From Morinoia aosen (lineage: Eukaryota > Arthropoda > Malacostraca > Amphipoda > Talitridae): a stretch of 64,000 nt of DNA. The stretch spans positions 20,732,293 through 20,796,292 of the forward strand of contig CM059575.1 in assembly GCA_030386875.1 (NCBI GenBank), written 5' to 3'. Positions 7,778 to 62,838 of the stretch are shown here, piece by piece; the stretch's first letter is position 1; every line of letters begins with the position of its first letter. Made by a program: the position numbers and the translations under genes. The notes beneath the pieces are model-generated. The model was not told the origin of the DNA, made no database searches, and saw only the letters and a program-made list of their open reading frames with translations.

Positions 7778-8180
7778 TCATCCGTGTAAGTTTAGATCCT
7801 AATGAGGTGATGTTGTACATTGGTATCGTTACTAATGGCTGGTTCAGGGAGGGGAAGTTCAGAGGAACGTTGGAAAGTAAGGGAGAAGTTAAGAGCAAAA
7901 TGTGAAAGAAAAACATGTGCACACTAAATGAATGCACATAAATTTAAAAAAATGCATGTACAGTAGCACACACGTGAACTAGATAATCTCATGTGAACGA
8001 AATAAATCTTTGTGAAATAAATATCACATGTAAACTAGACAAGGCCATTAAGGCTCGATAAATATTTGCAAGCTAGTTAAAAACGAGTACTCTAGATGAG
8101 CACGCGTGTAAAACGCACACATCCTGGTCTCCATTGCGCTGGAATTGGATGGAGAATTTCAAAGACACGCATAATGTAAA

Positions 8181-9262
8181 ATGTTTGTGTAGCCTAGCAC
8201 TGAAGGGAAATGATGTCTGTGTAGCCAAGCAATGAAGGGAAATGATGTTTTGTGTAGCTTAACAATGAAGGGAAATGATGTTTGTGTAGCCTAGAACTGA
8301 AGGGAAATGATGTCTGCGTAGCCTAGCAATGAAGGGAAATGATGTTTGTGTAGCCTAGCAATGAAGGGAAATGATGTTTGTGTAGCCTAGCAATGAAGGG
8401 AAATGATGTTTGTGTAGCCTAGCAATGAAGGGAAATGATGTTTGTGTAACCTAGCAATGAAGGAAAATGATGTTTGTGTAGCCTAGCAATGAAGAGAAAT
8501 GATGTTTGTGTAGCCTAGCAATGAAGGGAAATGATGTTTGTGAAGCCTAACAATGAAGGGAAATGATGTTTGTATAACCCAGCAATGAAGGGAAATGAAG
8601 ATATTTGTGTAACCTAGCAATGAAGGAAAGTGAAGATGTTTGTGTAACCTAGCAATGAAGGAAAGTGAAGATGTTTTTGTAACCTAGCAATGAAGGGAAG
8701 TGAAGATGTTTTTGTAACCTAGCAATGAAGGGAAGTGAAGATGTTTGTGTAACCTAGCAATGAAGGAAAGTGAAGATGTTTTTGTAACCTAGCAATGAAG
8801 GAAAGTGAAGATGTTTTTGTAACCTAGCAATGAAGGGAAGTGAAGATGTTTTTGTAACCTAGCAATGAAGGGAAGTGAAGATGTTTGTGTCACCTAGCAA
8901 TGAAGGGAAGTGAAGATGTTTTTGTAACCTAGCAATGAAGGGAAATGAAGATGTTTGTATAGCCTAGCAATGAAGGGAAGTGAAGATGTTTGTGTAACCT
9001 ATAGCAATGAAGGGAAGTGAAGATGTTTGTGTAACCTAGCAATGAAGGGAAGTGAAGATGTTTGTGTAACCTATAGCAATGAAGGGAAGTGAAGATGTTT
9101 GTGTAACCTAGCAATGAAGGGAAATGAAGATGTTTATGTAACCTAGCAATGAAGTGAAATGAAGATGTTTGTGTAACCTAGCAATGAAGGGAAATGAAGA
9201 TGTTTGTGTAACCTAGCAATGAAGGGAAATGAAGATGTTTGTGTAACCTAGCAATGAAGGGA
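8181..9262. repeat. Minisatellite, 32-bp units changing to 35-bp units
   Basis: About 1.08 kb of direct repeats sharing the core CCTAGCAATGAAGG. From 8181 to about 8580 the period is 32 bp, with GTGTAGCCTAGC and AAATGATG at the joint. From about 8590 onward the period is 35 bp because the joint reads GTGAAGATG (3 bp added) and the core changes to GTAACCTAGC. There are about 12 short and 20 long units. Two units near 9000 and 9070 share a 2-bp insertion (CCTATAGC). Open frames inside are repeat artefacts. Confidence 0.97.
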
Positions 9263-9576
9263 GACAGCTCGAGAACGGAACATGTGTACAGAAGTGGAGT
9301 GAGTGGAGTTGAATTTTTATGAAGACAAAGAATGACGCATATTTTTCAGACCGTTTAGTGTTGAGAATATAATTTAAACTGTTATGATGCTTGTAACGAA
9401 GAAGTTTCAGCATTATCGTACATTGTGCTCTACATTTTAAGAGAATTAAATAAACCGCATCCTGGAATTTATCGCAAACTCTCTGAAAATTAACAAATGT
9501 CAATTCAAACACGTAGCATCTAACCAAAGCTGAAATGGTTTTTGACAGTTTATTAGCAGTTCAGCTGAGTTGTTCA

Positions 9577-10610
9577 GCCCCTCAGGAGAATGCAGCTATT
9601 GTATCTGCGTGAATTTGATGCAACTATTGTATCTACGCGAATTTGATGCAGCTATTGTATCTACGCGAATTTGATGCAGCTATTGAATCTACGCGAATTT
9701 GATGCAGCTATTGTATCTACGCGAATTTGATGCAGCTATTGTATCTACGCGAATTTGATGCAGCTATTGTATCTACGCGAATTTGATGCAGCTATTGTAT
9801 CTACACGAATTTGATGCAACTATTGTATCTACGCGAATTTGATGCAGCTATTGTATCTACGTGAATTTGATGCAGCTATTGTATCTACGTGAATTTGATG
9901 CAACTATTGTATCTACGCGAATTTGATGCAGCTATTGTATCTACGCGAATTTGATGCAACTATTGTATCTACGCGAATTTGATGCAGCTATTGTATCTAC
10001 GCGAATTCGATGCAACTATTGTATCTACGCGAATTTGATGCAACTATTGTATCTACGCGAATTTGATGCAGCTATTGTATCTACGTGAATTTGATGCAGC
10101 TATTGTATCTACGTGAATTTGATGCAACTATTGTATCTACGCGAATTTGATGCAGCTATTGTATCTACGCGAATTTGATGCAACTATTGTATCTACGCGA
10201 ATTCGATGCAACTATTGTATCTACGCGAATTTGATGCAGCTATTGTATCTACGCGAATTTGATGCAGCTATTGTATCTACGCGAATTCGATGCAACTATT
10301 GTATCTACGCGAATTTGATGCAGCTATTGTATCTACGCGAATTTGACCTGTCAGGAAGAAAATGTGAGGTCCTGATCTAAAGATTTGGTGGGTCTTCTTT
10401 TGGCTAAGATGAAAATGGATTTTGGTGAAGGACAGTTTTTTCATGGTTCACTATTCACTATCTTGTCGGCAGCTATGACTTCCTTCTCCAAATTATATCT
10501 TGTTTCGTAATTTTTTCATAACTTGCAGTTTCTGTACGCAGGGGGTATCATGCATAGATTCCCAGCTCCCTAAACTTCATTCTGAATGGTGCCACAGTCT
10601 TTTATCTCTT
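9577..10610 (+). repeat. Dispersed repeat, copy A, containing an expanded 28-bp array
   Basis: Outside its internal array this copy aligns with three others in the window (48916-49231, 50411-50735 and 62521-62838 minus). Shared landmarks in order are TATTGTATCTA...GAATT, a GAAAATGTGAGGTCCTGA-like segment at 10361-10380, a CTTCCTTCT-like segment near 10480, and CATAGATTC...AATGGTGCC at 10553-10594. Without the array it would be about 300 bp. No coding capacity, terminal inverted repeats or clear pol III boxes were seen, so its class is unknown; SINE-like or MITE-like origins are both possible. Confidence 0.8.
9591..10346. repeat. 28-bp minisatellite, exactly 27 copies with no indels
   Basis: The array is 756 bp, which is 27 times 28. 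Each unit starts TGCAGCTATTGTATCTACG or TGCAACTATTGTATCTACG and ends GCGAATTTGA. Every unit start that I stepped through lands in register, so there is no insertion or deletion. Variants (AG or AA in GCAGC/GCAAC, GCG or GTG, ATTTGA or ATTCGA) show units 9-14 repeated as units 17-22, a block duplication offset by 8 units (224 bp). The array sits inside copy A of a dispersed repeat whose other copies carry this motif once. Confidence 0.98.
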
Positions 10611-10778
10611 TGGAGTACCTTTGTTATGGTTAGGAAAGCTTAAAATAACTTATTTAAAAATAATCCAATCTGATTTGTTCAGCACTTGAAACTATCTTTT
10701 TGCCGTCGAGCAACGAACGTGAAAAATAATTTTGATGTAATCCACATCTGTTGCGATCACTCCGCTACCACGAATATA

Positions 10779-10920
10779 CAGGGTGTTCTAAAAAAATGTT
10801 ATTACTGACCGATGCATGTATATATGATACCGGAACCATGTATCAGAATTAGACTTTTGTACGGTTCTGGTATCATGTATACATCTATCGGTCAGCGAAT
10901 ACATTTTTGTAGAGAGCCTG
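10779..10920. mobile_element. Mariner-type MITE, 142 bp, nearly all palindrome, TA flanks
   Basis: The left arm 10779-10837 starts CAGGGTGTTCTAAAAAAATG. The right arm 10863-10920, read in reverse, starts CAGGCTCTCTACAAAAATG and continues in step; the inner 32 bp (10806-10837 against 10863-10894) match at 28 positions. The loop is 25 bp. TA dinucleotides lie directly outside both ends (10777-10778 and 10921-10922), as expected for Tc1/mariner target duplication. There is no transposase inside. The open frames crossing it are chance. Confidence 0.85.
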
Positions 10921-10922
10921 TA

Positions 10923-11929
10923 TATAGGGATAACATCAACGCTACAGTGTGTAGAAGAATGTTTGCGAACGCATCGCTCTTTCATGCTTCGAAAGGATCA
11001 GCGATAATGACTTTTGCACGTAGAAGCATCGGAGCAAACTGTTCTGTGAATCCTTCAAAACAACGCCGAATGTCCTTCCTACGAAATCGCCAACACCGGG
11101 ACGCAAGAACGTGTCATTAATAACAGTTGTCGTGCGCACACGCACAATTTCCTCACGCTACGTCGCTTGGATTCTTCACTGAATTGATGCCAGACCCCTC
11201 GTCTCCTTGGTATATTTCTTTGCTATGAACTGTGACCATTTACGTAGAATTTTATTCATTTTATGAAGATTAAGCATATAATACATTTTTATAATCATTT
11301 AATATGGACCGCAGATTCTTTTATCACATAGTTCGCACATTTAAGCATTAGATTCATCTTTGTAATCATTTGATCAGGAATGCAGATACTTTTATCACTT
11401 AGTTGCACATTTTATACTTGTCATCCATAATGTGTATGTTCTGAAACATGAAAGTAAGACGGCTTAGACGGACGGAGCGTGAAGTCTACGCGGGATATCC
11501 CTTGCTCACTTCTCGTATCATGGATACTCAGCCACCTGATGACAGACGCATTGTCTCTGTGATACATATATCTATCCTTTGTAACTTCATCACTTTTAAT
11601 TTCATTCAATTTTTAATGACTGTGCGCAAAATTCATCTTCCCGATTATTTAATCAGGATTGTAGGTAATTCTATCAGTTAATTTAAATATTTGTGTCCTG
11701 CCATTCGTAACGTATTTGTTCTCAGTTATTGTAGGAACTTCATGGCTAGTAAGCTAATCCTCAGATGAGACACGGCCGTCATTGAGTAGATTTAACACAG
11801 TGTAATGCCTACGCTTGATATTACCAGTTGATGATTTCTATCATTGAAAACTTCAATAATATTCTGTGGTTAAAAGAAGCCAAAGTTCCCCTGTTAGGTA
11901 ATACTACGATGAATCCTATATACCAGTTA
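10923..11929. other. Intergenic DNA with three decayed copies of a ~75-bp unit
   Basis: Segments at about 11290-11365, 11360-11435 and 11645-11722 share the order ATTTAATCAGGAT-like, TTTTATCACTTAGTT-like and GTCATCC/GCCATTCG-like phrases, so they are old copies of one unit. A 150-bp stretch between the second and third (about 11445-11590) is unlike them and contains the small palindrome GTATCATGGATAC. No gene was recognised. Confidence 0.45.
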
Positions 11930-48352: not shown

Positions 48353-48915
48353 TAACCATTAGGTGCTCAAATTTTTGACACCTACTGTTGCTCAAGCCTT
48401 CTAATGCCCAAGTCTCAATAATACGTTTAAGTTCTTATCATATTGTTCGTTTAGTTCGCTACTGTTTACTTCACCTCTGCAGAACTCGGCTACAAATAGG
48501 CCTTCGAGACTTCTATACCTTTGTGCTCACTTTAGTTCTTTTAATTTTCAAGTGTATCCCTTCTAAGGTTTTTCTTCCCCTTCTGTCCAAACTTGCTATT
48601 TCTAAGAGCTGCGTCTCCTGTATCGAAACACATCATGGACTCCCTGTTTTCAAAAGTCCATTCTAAACGATCCCTCATCTTAATTTCGCCTGTGCTGTGG
48701 CTAGGGAGTCTCGAACTACCTACTGTATGAACAACAGTGTTACTAATAGCAAAATTTTAACGGAAATATTCCCTGTATGTTCAAATGCATATGCAGATAC
48801 TTAACTTATAATATTTTAATGCACGATTTGTGTCGTGCTAAATTACCCGAGTTAGAGATTATTATATCGATGCCATATTGCTAATCGCCTGGCAGTCGTG
48901 GTTCAGACTACATAT
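48353..48915. other. No feature recognised
   Basis: An open frame of 92 codons on the + strand (48388-48666) is rich in Leu/Ser/Cys but resembles no family that I can name. No arrays or transposon ends were seen. Confidence 0.45.
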
Positions 48916-49231
48916 CCCATCATGCGATGCAACTATTGTATCTATGGGAATTAGAGCTCCCATGGAGAATATCTGAGATCTTGAAATAACGTTTGGGTAG
49001 TCCTTTAATTTTTGTGTAAATAGGGTATATTTCATTTTTTGTTTTGTTACGGACCATCTTTTATTGGTCACTGCTGACCTGTTTTTCAACACCTAACACT
49101 TCCTTCTTCAACATTTATCGTGTTTCATAAAATTCATTTTAGACTTATTGTTTCTATGTACCTGGTGCATAGATTCTGCGTTCCCCCAGGTCCATACTAA
49201 ATGGTGCCTTCTTCCTTCCTCTCTTTTGAAT
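48916..49231 (+). repeat. Dispersed repeat, copy B
   Basis: It contains a single copy of the 28-bp motif (GATGCAACTATTGTATCTAT then GGGAATTA at 48927 onward), then landmarks shared with the other copies: TTTGTTACGGACCATCTTTT near 49045, CACTTCCTTCTTCAAC near 49095, and GTGCATAGATTC...CTAAATGGTGCC near 49165-49208. It is about 316 bp long, with no coding capacity. Class unknown. Confidence 0.8.
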
Positions 49232-49978
49232 GCCTCTGCTGCACTTACGTAGGCTTAAACTAACTCAGCGAATCGAATCTTATTTATTCAGACTGTATAT
49301 ATTGAATGATAAGCCCAGTTTGACGGCTGTTTAGGAAACAATTTTCACAAACATATTGGAAAATTTGGAGAATAATTTCACCTCACAATAACAGAAACTT
49401 AATTCAGAGGCTACCTTCTAAGACAAAAAGTTATCATCTGAGGCCTTTAAATCTTTTTCAATCGTTATACCTATCACCGCCAATCATTAGTAATTTTTTC
49501 GCTTTTTCTTTTTCATTTCATTCTACATGACGAAGTTCTTTTAAGCAGATGATTACGATGCCTCGCAAGTATTATTAAATTTGACGGATTTTGAATATGA
49601 ATATTTAACATGACATTTTTCAGTAATTATTCAGGACGGTGAATTACTCTGAGTTAAAATCCTAACAACTTCTTCTTTCAAATTTTTTTAGACATGTAAA
49701 ATTTGGCTCACTGTTATTAAAATCCCTTTATTAAAGTTTTAAACCACACTTGATGCAATGTATGACATACTGTATTTAAAACCAACACCGGCCTTTCAAT
49801 GCTAAAGAATTAAAATAATAAGTAATTTAAAATTGAAACGTCAAGAAGTTCCCTTCCACCTTATCTCGTATGCCGTTTAATTAGATTGTAGTGTGACGTA
49901 ATTTGAATTAAAGTATTTTAAAGAACACGAAATGTAAACTTTGACATACTGTATCTAAAAACACATTTATTAAAGTTT
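49232..49978. other. Intergenic DNA with a small duplicated phrase set
   Basis: TTTATTAAAG with GACATACTGTAT occurs at 49727-49775, and again at 49941-49975 in swapped order just beside the piggyBac-type MITE, indicating an old rearranged duplication. No gene was recognised. Confidence 0.5.
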
Positions 49979-50203: not shown

Positions 50204-50410
50204 TTAAATAACACGTTAGTGTTGCACCCAATTTAAATAACGTGTTAGTTAAGCCATGTGAATAAAATATGAATTATATAAACTTTCAAGTTATTAACAC
50301 GCGGTAAAAATTATCGAAACAATATTTTAATCATATAAATAATATTAGAATTGTGTAATCAAAATTTATTTCTAATGGTACTATTTGAATTTTAAAACAT
50401 GGCTCTCATT

Positions 50411-50735
50411 GAAATATAACTATTGAATTAAAGGGAATTAAGACTCTCAGGGGAAATATGTGAGGCCCCGAACTAAAAATAAGGAAGGCTTTCCCTTTCT
50501 CTAAAGTATAGAGGTTTTCTGTTTTGTGACGAGCCATCATTGTACGGTTCGCAGCTGTCGTTTTTTTCAGCTCTTATTAGTTGTTTCTTCATCTTTTATT
50601 CTGCTTCGTTACCTTCCTTCAACTTTTTTGTTTCTTTGGGCAGGTGTGGGGACGCACCATGTGCATAGATTCTCAGTTCACTGAATTCCTTCTAAATTGT
50701 GCCTTCATCCTTCCTCTTTTTAGAACTCTTTTATT
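50411..50735 (+). repeat. Dispersed repeat, copy C
   Basis: It is homologous to copies A, B and D through AACTATTG...GGGAATTAAGACTCTCAGG (one diverged copy of the 28-bp motif), GAAATATGTGAGGCCCCGAA, GTTTTCTGTTTTGTGACGAG, and a 3' part with GTGCATAGATTCTC and TGTGCCTTCATCCTTCCTC. It is about 325 bp and lies 1.2 kb from copy B in the same orientation. Confidence 0.78.
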
Positions 50736-51344
50736 GGGGTTGGGGAGTATATTCTAATTTATATTCTATCCTATTCTATTGAAATAGTATTCAAAATAAT
50801 GCTTGAATCATCTCAATAATATTTGATAGGATGCAGTAGAAGTCACTGAACTTATTCGTGTCCACAAGTACCTATATATACTCAAATGTGTCTTTGTCAT
50901 AGCCTTGAGAAACAATCTTCTTGTTGCATCACTTGGGATAAATAAATTGTTTAAATTGTTTAAATTTATGCTTCAGAATAATATCTAACGTGTGCATATT
51001 TCAAAAACCCAAGTAATATCTAGATAAGACTTGATATTATCCATGCGTGACCTCCCAAGCTAAACCGTTGAGTAGATGATTCGAGAAAACTTCCTCATTT
51101 CCTAGACCTTATATAGGGCTCCCACATTAGCCCCTTCCCTTTGGGACAACATCAACCTTCCCTATCCAATGAACATTGACCTTCCCCACCCAATGAACAT
51201 CTCTGAGTGTTTTCCAAGTACTTGAGCTAAGTAGAGTTCCTCAATTTGCGTGCGCCGAGTTGCGGGTGAGTGGCGCGACGGCTCCTTCTTATCAGGACTG
51301 AGGGGCTCACAAACGTGGCGCTTTGCGGCGCACTTCTTCCCTGG
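50736..51344. other. No feature recognised
   Basis: AT-rich with a small duplication of CCTTCCCYAYCCAATGAACAT near 51157-51200. No gene or transposon end was seen. Confidence 0.55.
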
Positions 51345-62150: not shown

Positions 62151-62520
62151 GAAGGCTCCACAGCTTGCGACAGGTCGGCAGCAGTCACGCCGCAAATCTC
62201 TTCCTCCTGCACTGTACGCGTCAGCTTCCAAACTATTGTCGAGTCTTCCTAATTGATTGACTGTAAGTTAAAGTTCAGCACGTGTTAAAGTAAGAAGAAG
62301 TTCACTCAGCATATTTTATGGAATACAAAAAAAAACATATTGTGTGAAATTCTTCTTGTTTTAATACGTGATGAACTTGAACTATTTCGTAATCAATACA
62401 AGAATGTTGAGTGAATTTATTCTTACTTTTACATGTGATTAAGTTGAACTTGTTAGTAAAATTGAAAAGTTGGAGAAGTGATTTTAAGTAAGTTCAAGCC
62501 TCCCTAACCACAACAGTGTT
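62151..62520. other. No feature recognised
   Basis: Plain AT-rich sequence. The phrase TTCTTACTTTTA/GTAAGAAGAAG occurs in both orientations near 62290 and 62420, without a clear element. Confidence 0.5.
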
Positions 62521-62838
62521 CCACAGAGAGGAAGCGAGGAGGCACCATTTAGTATGGAGTCATGGCAACCGGGCTGCACTGGGAGTGTTCTCACACTAAA
62601 TTGCCTGTGTATAGAAATGGCAAGGAAGTTCATAAAAAAGTTGATTCTTGAAGAAGGAAGTAATGCTTGCTGGAAAGCAGAAGTGCAGTGAACTGAAAAA
62701 AGATGGTCCTTAAGAAAACAGAAACCTATTCAATTTCAACAAATAGAAGGCCTACGTCATCTTCAGCTCAGGACTTCACATTTTCAACCTGAAAGCACGA
62801 ATTCCAATAGATACAAAATTAGTATCCTCCTGATGAGG
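62521..62838 (-). repeat. Dispersed repeat, copy D (minus strand)
   Basis: Read on the minus strand from 62838 it contains TTTTGTATCTATTGGAATTC (one copy of the 28-bp motif), TTGAAAATGTGAAGTCCTGA, GTTTTCTTAAGGACCATCTT, ACTTCCTTCTTCAAGAATC and, at the far end, CCATACTAAATGGTGCCTCC. These landmarks appear in the same order in copies A, B and C. About 30 bp near 62565-62600 are not shared and may be an insertion. Confidence 0.78.

Follow-up and report, generated by a model that had tools for sequence, protein, structure and literature searches.

Minisatellites at the head of a dispersed SINE-like retroposon in the genome of Morinoia aosen

Here we describe a minisatellite of 27 units (array A) that sits within a single insertion of a SINE-like retroposon, in a 64-kb stretch of the Morinoia aosen genome (hereafter referred to as the window). 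One head motif is usual among the copies of the element that were sampled; the head is nevertheless repeated at many other places in the same genome, with unit boundaries that differ between places, and the array-bearing copies that were read are mostly old. We consider it probable that this element, about 361 bp long, inserts with one head, which later duplicates locally and grows into an array, array A being one such case.

TRF placed array A at positions 9590-10346 of the window (period 28, 27.0 copies, 95% matches), confirming the observation, made earlier in a sequence-only reading, of an array inside one copy of a dispersed element. A 20-base core with up to three mismatches matched the window 28 times, 27 times in array A and once in copy B (mean 0.00 over 100 shuffles). 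Each unit is at most two sites off the unit consensus, and no clear higher-order period was seen among the units of array A. The element that carries them, at 70.9% identity to the genome consensus, is far older than the 4.4% divergence of the units. The target-site duplication of copy A (flanking-repeat score 11, against a maximum of 9 in 60 random pairs) lies outside the array, and array A therefore sits inside one insertion of the element (Table 1).

Table 1. Positions, in window coordinates, of array A, its surroundings and the other three copies of the element.
Feature	Positions	Strand	Basis and remarks
Left target-site duplication of copy A, GAGTTGTTCAG	9567-9577	+	Adjoins element start; 10 of 11 bases identical to right duplication
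Copy A of the SINE-like element, array included	9578-10671	+	Consensus 1-38 aligns from 9578; consensus 12-362 aligns to 10317-10671 (70.9%, E 8e-45)
Left box, CCCCTCAGGAGA	9578-9589	+	Matches consensus 1-12; direct reading and alignment
Minisatellite (array A), 27 units of 28 bp	9590-10346	+	Unit close to consensus 12-40; average difference between unit pairs 4.4%
Right box, CCTGTCAGGAAGA, imperfect direct repeat of left box	10347-10359	+	Direct reading; consensus equivalent 40-54
Body and tail of copy A, ending in AATCCAATCT	10347-10671	+	Body search and consensus alignment
Right target-site duplication of copy A, GATTTGTTCAG	10672-10682	+	Adjoins element end; pairs with 9567-9577
Copy B, one motif (about 48926-48955)	48911-49283	+	Core match and consensus alignment
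Copy C, one worn motif	50402-50777	+	Alignment
Copy D, one worn motif	62480-62838	-	Alignment

The window had been read as holding four copies of a repeat of about 320 bp, three of them with a single motif. All four align to the consensus (A 70.9%, B 78.3%, C 69.8% and D 73.4% identity; E 8e-45, 2e-78, 5e-41 and 1e-55), but the element is longer, at about 361 bp. Copies B, C and D do have one motif each, although it is worn in C and D, and the proposed core GGGAATT is found in B and in the consensus, whereas A reads CGCGAATT. The common flanks hold: the flank of A aligns to B, C and D, and the alignments are far above chance (E 5e-41 or better against the consensus). By contrast, the proposal that these copies form a before-and-after pair falls, because they are old paralogues (B and C 67% identical, B and A 64%) and so give no such pair at one locus. 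TTCAGACT stands on both sides of copy B; its 8 bases are within the null range. Two other features lie near copy A: a separate 35-bp array of 32 units (8173-9262), about 300 bp upstream, and a stretch of about 150 bp (10774-10925) that matches its own reverse complement at 77% and resembles a small inverted-repeat transposon.

The genome (1.99 Gb, 29 contigs) was searched with the body of copy A only (10347-10700), which gave 1708 first-look candidates; 40 were scored and all matched, A included. In a consensus built from 20 other copies and A, conservation is sharp from position 1 (CCCCTCAGGGG) to about position 361 (CTAATAATCTAATCTAATCT) and low outside. The element is thus short, dispersed and of high copy number, and in the 50 kb beside the 20 chosen copies another 10 pieces, each 60 bp or longer, were present. 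Of 31 copies in which both ends are present, 13 are flanked by exact direct repeats of 10 bases or more, compared with 0.4% of mispaired flanks; duplicate loci (L017, L021, L022, L056, L062 and L072) and copies lacking an end were omitted, array-bearing copies were measured against their own arrays, and one of the 13 duplications, at L061, resembles an array-unit match. The duplications vary in length within the family (10 of 11 bases agree in copy A), and in single-head copies they directly adjoin position 1. Tails are (AATCT)n or (AAT)n, as judged by eye among 30 aligned rows, though not in every row. Five of the 20 copies read have no recognisable head motif and some alignments begin inside the head, as expected from 5' truncation. 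ARAGORN found no tRNA in the consensus, three loci with good copies had no Rfam match at E≤1, and there was no match to the phage collection. Despite its SINE features we therefore call the element a SINE-like retroposon, since a polymerase III head was not found. Elsewhere among the contigs, C27 holds many cox1-like frames at 55-72 Mb, mostly without in-frame TGA, as in bacteria; on C28, two cox1 that contain TGA codons lie 18.36 kb from each other; and the cox1 of C29 can be read without a break under genetic code table 5 and seems arthropod.

Among the 39 copies found with the body of A (A excluded), 32 have one head motif, 7 have none that is recognisable and none has two adjacent motifs. 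Motifs were counted over 20 and 19 rows; L012 and L017 have common flanks, as do L020, L021 and L022, so that the 39 rows represent about 36 insertions. The 39 copies are a sample, taken from the 40 scored of 1708 candidates, and lean to younger copies; within this sample, a single motif is the usual state and only a minority of copies have arrays. When the 20 longer loci were scanned with TRF, one array was found, of 2.5 units (L018), and no second adjacent head was counted in the 18 listed copies of at least 90% identity. The sequence-only reading would have been in difficulty had most copies already carried arrays. In this sample they do not (motif counting gives 0 of 39 and TRF 1 of 20), and now that the alignment, consensus and genome search have been made, with the flanks of A aligning and one motif usual among the sampled copies, its reading of internal-motif amplification is supported.

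Beyond that reading, the head of about 40 bp proved to be repeated at many other places. Arrays were searched for with the units of A as queries and then with other arrays as queries. Counting A, the head is repeated at 21 of the places read (A, L018, L049, L050, L057-L061, L063-L067, two at L074, L075, L076, L081/L082, L083/L084 and L085/L086; L062, a duplicate of L061, stands outside the count), and is only doubled at four (L064, L065, L067 and L076). In 20 of the 21 the unit scores above 200 shuffles when compared with the head; the exception is L067, the doubling of which rests on two motifs 39 bp apart. No body is attached at L057, and only a short piece of it at L085/L086. TRF periods range from 26 to 41 bp and copy numbers from 2 to 73. 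About ten unit boundaries occur, with units spanning consensus positions 12-38, 10-35, 14-40, 2-34, 1-39, 1-39 plus TT, 1-38, 1-36, 16-39, 13-40 plus 7, 16-41 and 2-25. Because these boundaries differ, the repeated heads did not arise by the dispersal of a single array; those of the 39-bp class may share an origin or have undergone exchange.

Not every place fetched held repeated heads. Three of the eight fetched after the search with the units of A (L051, L052 and L053) were rejected as unrelated 24-bp arrays, with unit scores against the head no better than shuffles and no body at the array. With unit scores of 24 at L054 (shuffle maximum 24) and 22 at L055/L056 (shuffle maximum 20), these places are borderline and stand outside the 21. 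After the search with other arrays (L057-L076), 14 of 20 places had at least two heads and six (L068-L073) did not. The flanking-repeat score exceeded the null maximum of 9 in 2 of 18 places (A, 11; L066, 10); the other 16, copy B included, scored 8 or less, so that this test is uninformative for most array loci. At L074 (582-3851) two neighbouring element copies have an array each, of 35/39-bp and 27-bp units, and the arrays of L074 and L060 contain higher-order units of 74 and 78 bp made of two alternating monomers. On contig C25, head-array matches spread over 53.5897-53.5949 Mb and 1.9587-1.9651 Mb, 5-6 kb each; the edges of both stretches were read, and both right edges run straight into the element body, the length of the middles coming from matches only. 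Matches to the 39-bp head array cluster near both ends of this 55.1-Mb contig (1.96-5.25 and 53.46-53.87 Mb), occupying roughly twelve places across the two strands among the matches listed.

In the origin that we propose for the arrays, new copies would usually insert with one head, and in some of them the head would later be duplicated by a local event, for which we infer slipped mispairing or unequal exchange. Further slippage or exchange would extend the duplicate from a few to perhaps more than 100 units, similar within a locus, and array A would have grown in this way from a unit close to consensus 12-40. Bodies with arrays match the consensus at 67-85% identity and those of single copies at 68-96%, the latter sample leaning young because of the search; the lower identity of the array copies suggests that arrays take time to form. 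L064 is a young exception, with 90.9% identity over consensus 1-207 and two heads. Human arrays derived from transposable elements (TEs) are described in PMC3389668 as coming more from younger elements, the opposite of the lean in this genome.

The layout of the head may bear on the first duplication. In its first 54 bp or so, a near-palindromic core, GATACAA-CTA-TTGTATC, is framed by two boxes that are imperfect direct repeats of each other, 39-41 bp apart (CCCCTC--AGGGGGA at 1-13 and GCGCTCCCAGGGGGA at 40-54); in copy A the boxes stand at 9578-9589 and 10347-10359. Three potential hairpins are present in the head consensus, which folds as single-stranded DNA better than most shuffles (z -2.1, equalled by 7 of 200 shuffles; z -3.9 for the 39-bp dimer), compared with z values of -1.1, -1.1 and +0.8 for three body segments; the units of A itself fold no better than shuffles (z -0.25). 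The two boxes and the folding head fit the published view in which short direct repeats act as seeds of minisatellites (Haber and Louis 1998, as described in PMC6947457 and PMC3389668), and boxes and hairpins may perhaps help the first duplication. The 39-bp period fits the box spacing, but the unit of A holds neither box, so that its period is not explained by box-to-box slippage in its simplest form, and A and five other arrays, having internal units, need another breakpoint than the boxes. A stronger version, which we put forward tentatively and with more doubt than belief, is that the head is a built-in minisatellite nursery, its box-hairpin-box layout yielding arrays repeatedly, often via a step tied to the first base, with products that have grown as large as satellites towards the two ends of C25. 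A graded series of separate births from the same sequence, running from a single unit to perhaps more than 100, would then be present in one genome.

The first duplication could instead have occurred during retroposition, if reverse transcriptase at the 5' end of the RNA jumped back to about position 36-39 and later exchange lengthened the product, which we judge rather unlikely. Amplification after insertion, as the sequence-only reading had it, fits arrays with internal units such as A, but units that start at the first base also allow duplication during retroposition. A template jump at the 5' end would account for such units, which begin at consensus 1 or 2 in 14 rows (L018, L057-L061, L063-L066, the first array of L074, L081/82, L083/84 and L085/86) with a right end that varies (25, 34, 36, 38 or 39). 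Some of them carry extra letters at the join (C, TT, GT or GTT), no unit among the arrays read contains sequence from beyond the element, and the young copy at L064 is already two-headed. However, a jump of this kind does not give the internal units starting at 10-16 (A, L049, L050, the second array of L074, L075 and L076), later indels in a single 39-bp type could account for the 36-41 variants, and the 18 listed copies of at least 90% identity lack a second adjacent head by motif count.

It is distinctly unlikely, in our view, that the head has no special property, the element being struck at random in a minisatellite-rich genome and head arrays simply being those that were searched for. Array density is high: counting arrays of 60 bp or longer with a period of 9 or above, 37 make up 17.5 of the 64 kb of the window, and 11 make up 1.7 of 50 kb elsewhere (loci L009-L028). 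As arrays are common in the genome, part of the record of the head may be background, and the array-blind sample held only one head array. The same tandem-query design (five units) was applied to three body segments and to head 1-39. Body 60-98 gave 40 rows, none longer than 49 bp; body 250-288 gave 48 rows and three places with long matches, one of them array-like over 1.3 kb at 72-74% identity, so that array-like matches exist in the body as well; and body 300-338 gave 41 rows, the longest 77 bp, with one place where two single matches lie 140 bp apart. These segments thus had long matches at 0, 3 and 1 places, whereas head 1-39 yielded 221 matches, many in one C25 cluster; those listed (about 150) are of five-unit length (191-198 bp) and lie on C25, C16, C17 and C9, most of them on C25. 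A tandem query of head 13-40 gave 41 rows and eight places with matches longer than 60 bp, two of which, on C12, are perhaps duplicates. In TRF on 96 element pieces, most from loci that had been fetched for head arrays, arrays of at least 2.5 units overlap heads only, and three overlaps with the body are of 2.0-2.1 units. The head is thus favoured for array birth; because only the best candidates were scored and C25 dominates the matches, we do not call it a proven hotspot.

That a source element already carrying multi-head arrays spread them, with single-motif copies as contractions, is very improbable. Similarity among the 39-bp arrays on C25, on C16 and at L059 is 91.7-96.4%, compared with only 81.5-83.5% for the bodies of L082, L084 and L059, an excess (L081-L086 and L059) for which exchange between loci or a shared late expansion are candidates; at L063, however, the array is 84-87% like those three, no more than its body (82-86%). 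Most young copies are one-headed, target-site duplications in single copies lie directly against position 1, and the differing unit boundaries also speak against spread from a source. So does the scatter of the 17 array-bearing bodies in a tree of 56, in which the array state changes 13 times, compared with a mean of 14.9 after shuffling (a count as low was reached in 77 of 500 shuffles); its well-supported branches force only two changes.

Nested self-insertion has been proposed as a source of dimers for other transposons. Insertion of the element into its own head is highly improbable as the origin of the first tandem dimer, and is rejected as a general cause: one copy (L073, 2121-2468) does lie in the head of an older copy, with a duplication (TGTATCTACGTAC) and older-copy sequence (60-329) downstream, but L058, L064 and L065 have no older same-strand remainder downstream, L067 has only a partial same-strand piece (158-320) some 590 bp downstream, and the target-site duplication of A brackets one element only.

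The origin of the first duplication of a minisatellite is still argued. In the genome described here, arrays stand at many places with readable boundaries beside abundant unexpanded copies, and initiation rates and junctions would be measurable once the genome of a relative is at hand. Array A is a TE-derived minisatellite, lying inside one TE copy, with a unit from that TE and with most other sampled copies unexpanded. In one known system the tandem repeats are reportedly part of the element itself, whereas one unit is usual in the element here. That system (Dias et al. 2015, as cited in PMC6947457) is alike in having an array inside a dispersed element that reaches satellite size. Ms6-hm, too, is a minisatellite that lies within one copy of a dispersed repeat, but that repeat is an LTR rather than SINE-like and the unit is another one. 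The (GGCAGA)n family (a 1998 report tabulated in PMC6947457) is likewise a tandem family expanded from SINE copies; the unit here is 26-41 bp, and the arrays are known from one genome. In humans, 7,276 TE-derived arrays, 23% of minisatellites and satellites, are reported (Ahmed and Liang 2012, PMC3389668), and the same account gives postulated mechanisms as covering only 6% of TE-derived tandem repeats. Minisatellites from Alu, B1 and MaLR elements are tabulated in PMC6947457. The Alu minisatellites, as described (Jurka and Gentles 2006, as cited; PMC3389668), are similar in that arrays derive from part of a SINE whose short direct repeats have been proposed as the seed; the element here differs in its lack of a tRNA or Rfam match, in the position of the array at the 5' head and in its roughly ten boundaries. 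Minisatellite birth inside SINEs has thus already been published for Alu and B1, and the arrays described here are another, often-repeated example of a known process, the value of which lies in how often a single short sequence has, apparently separately, given birth to arrays within one genome.
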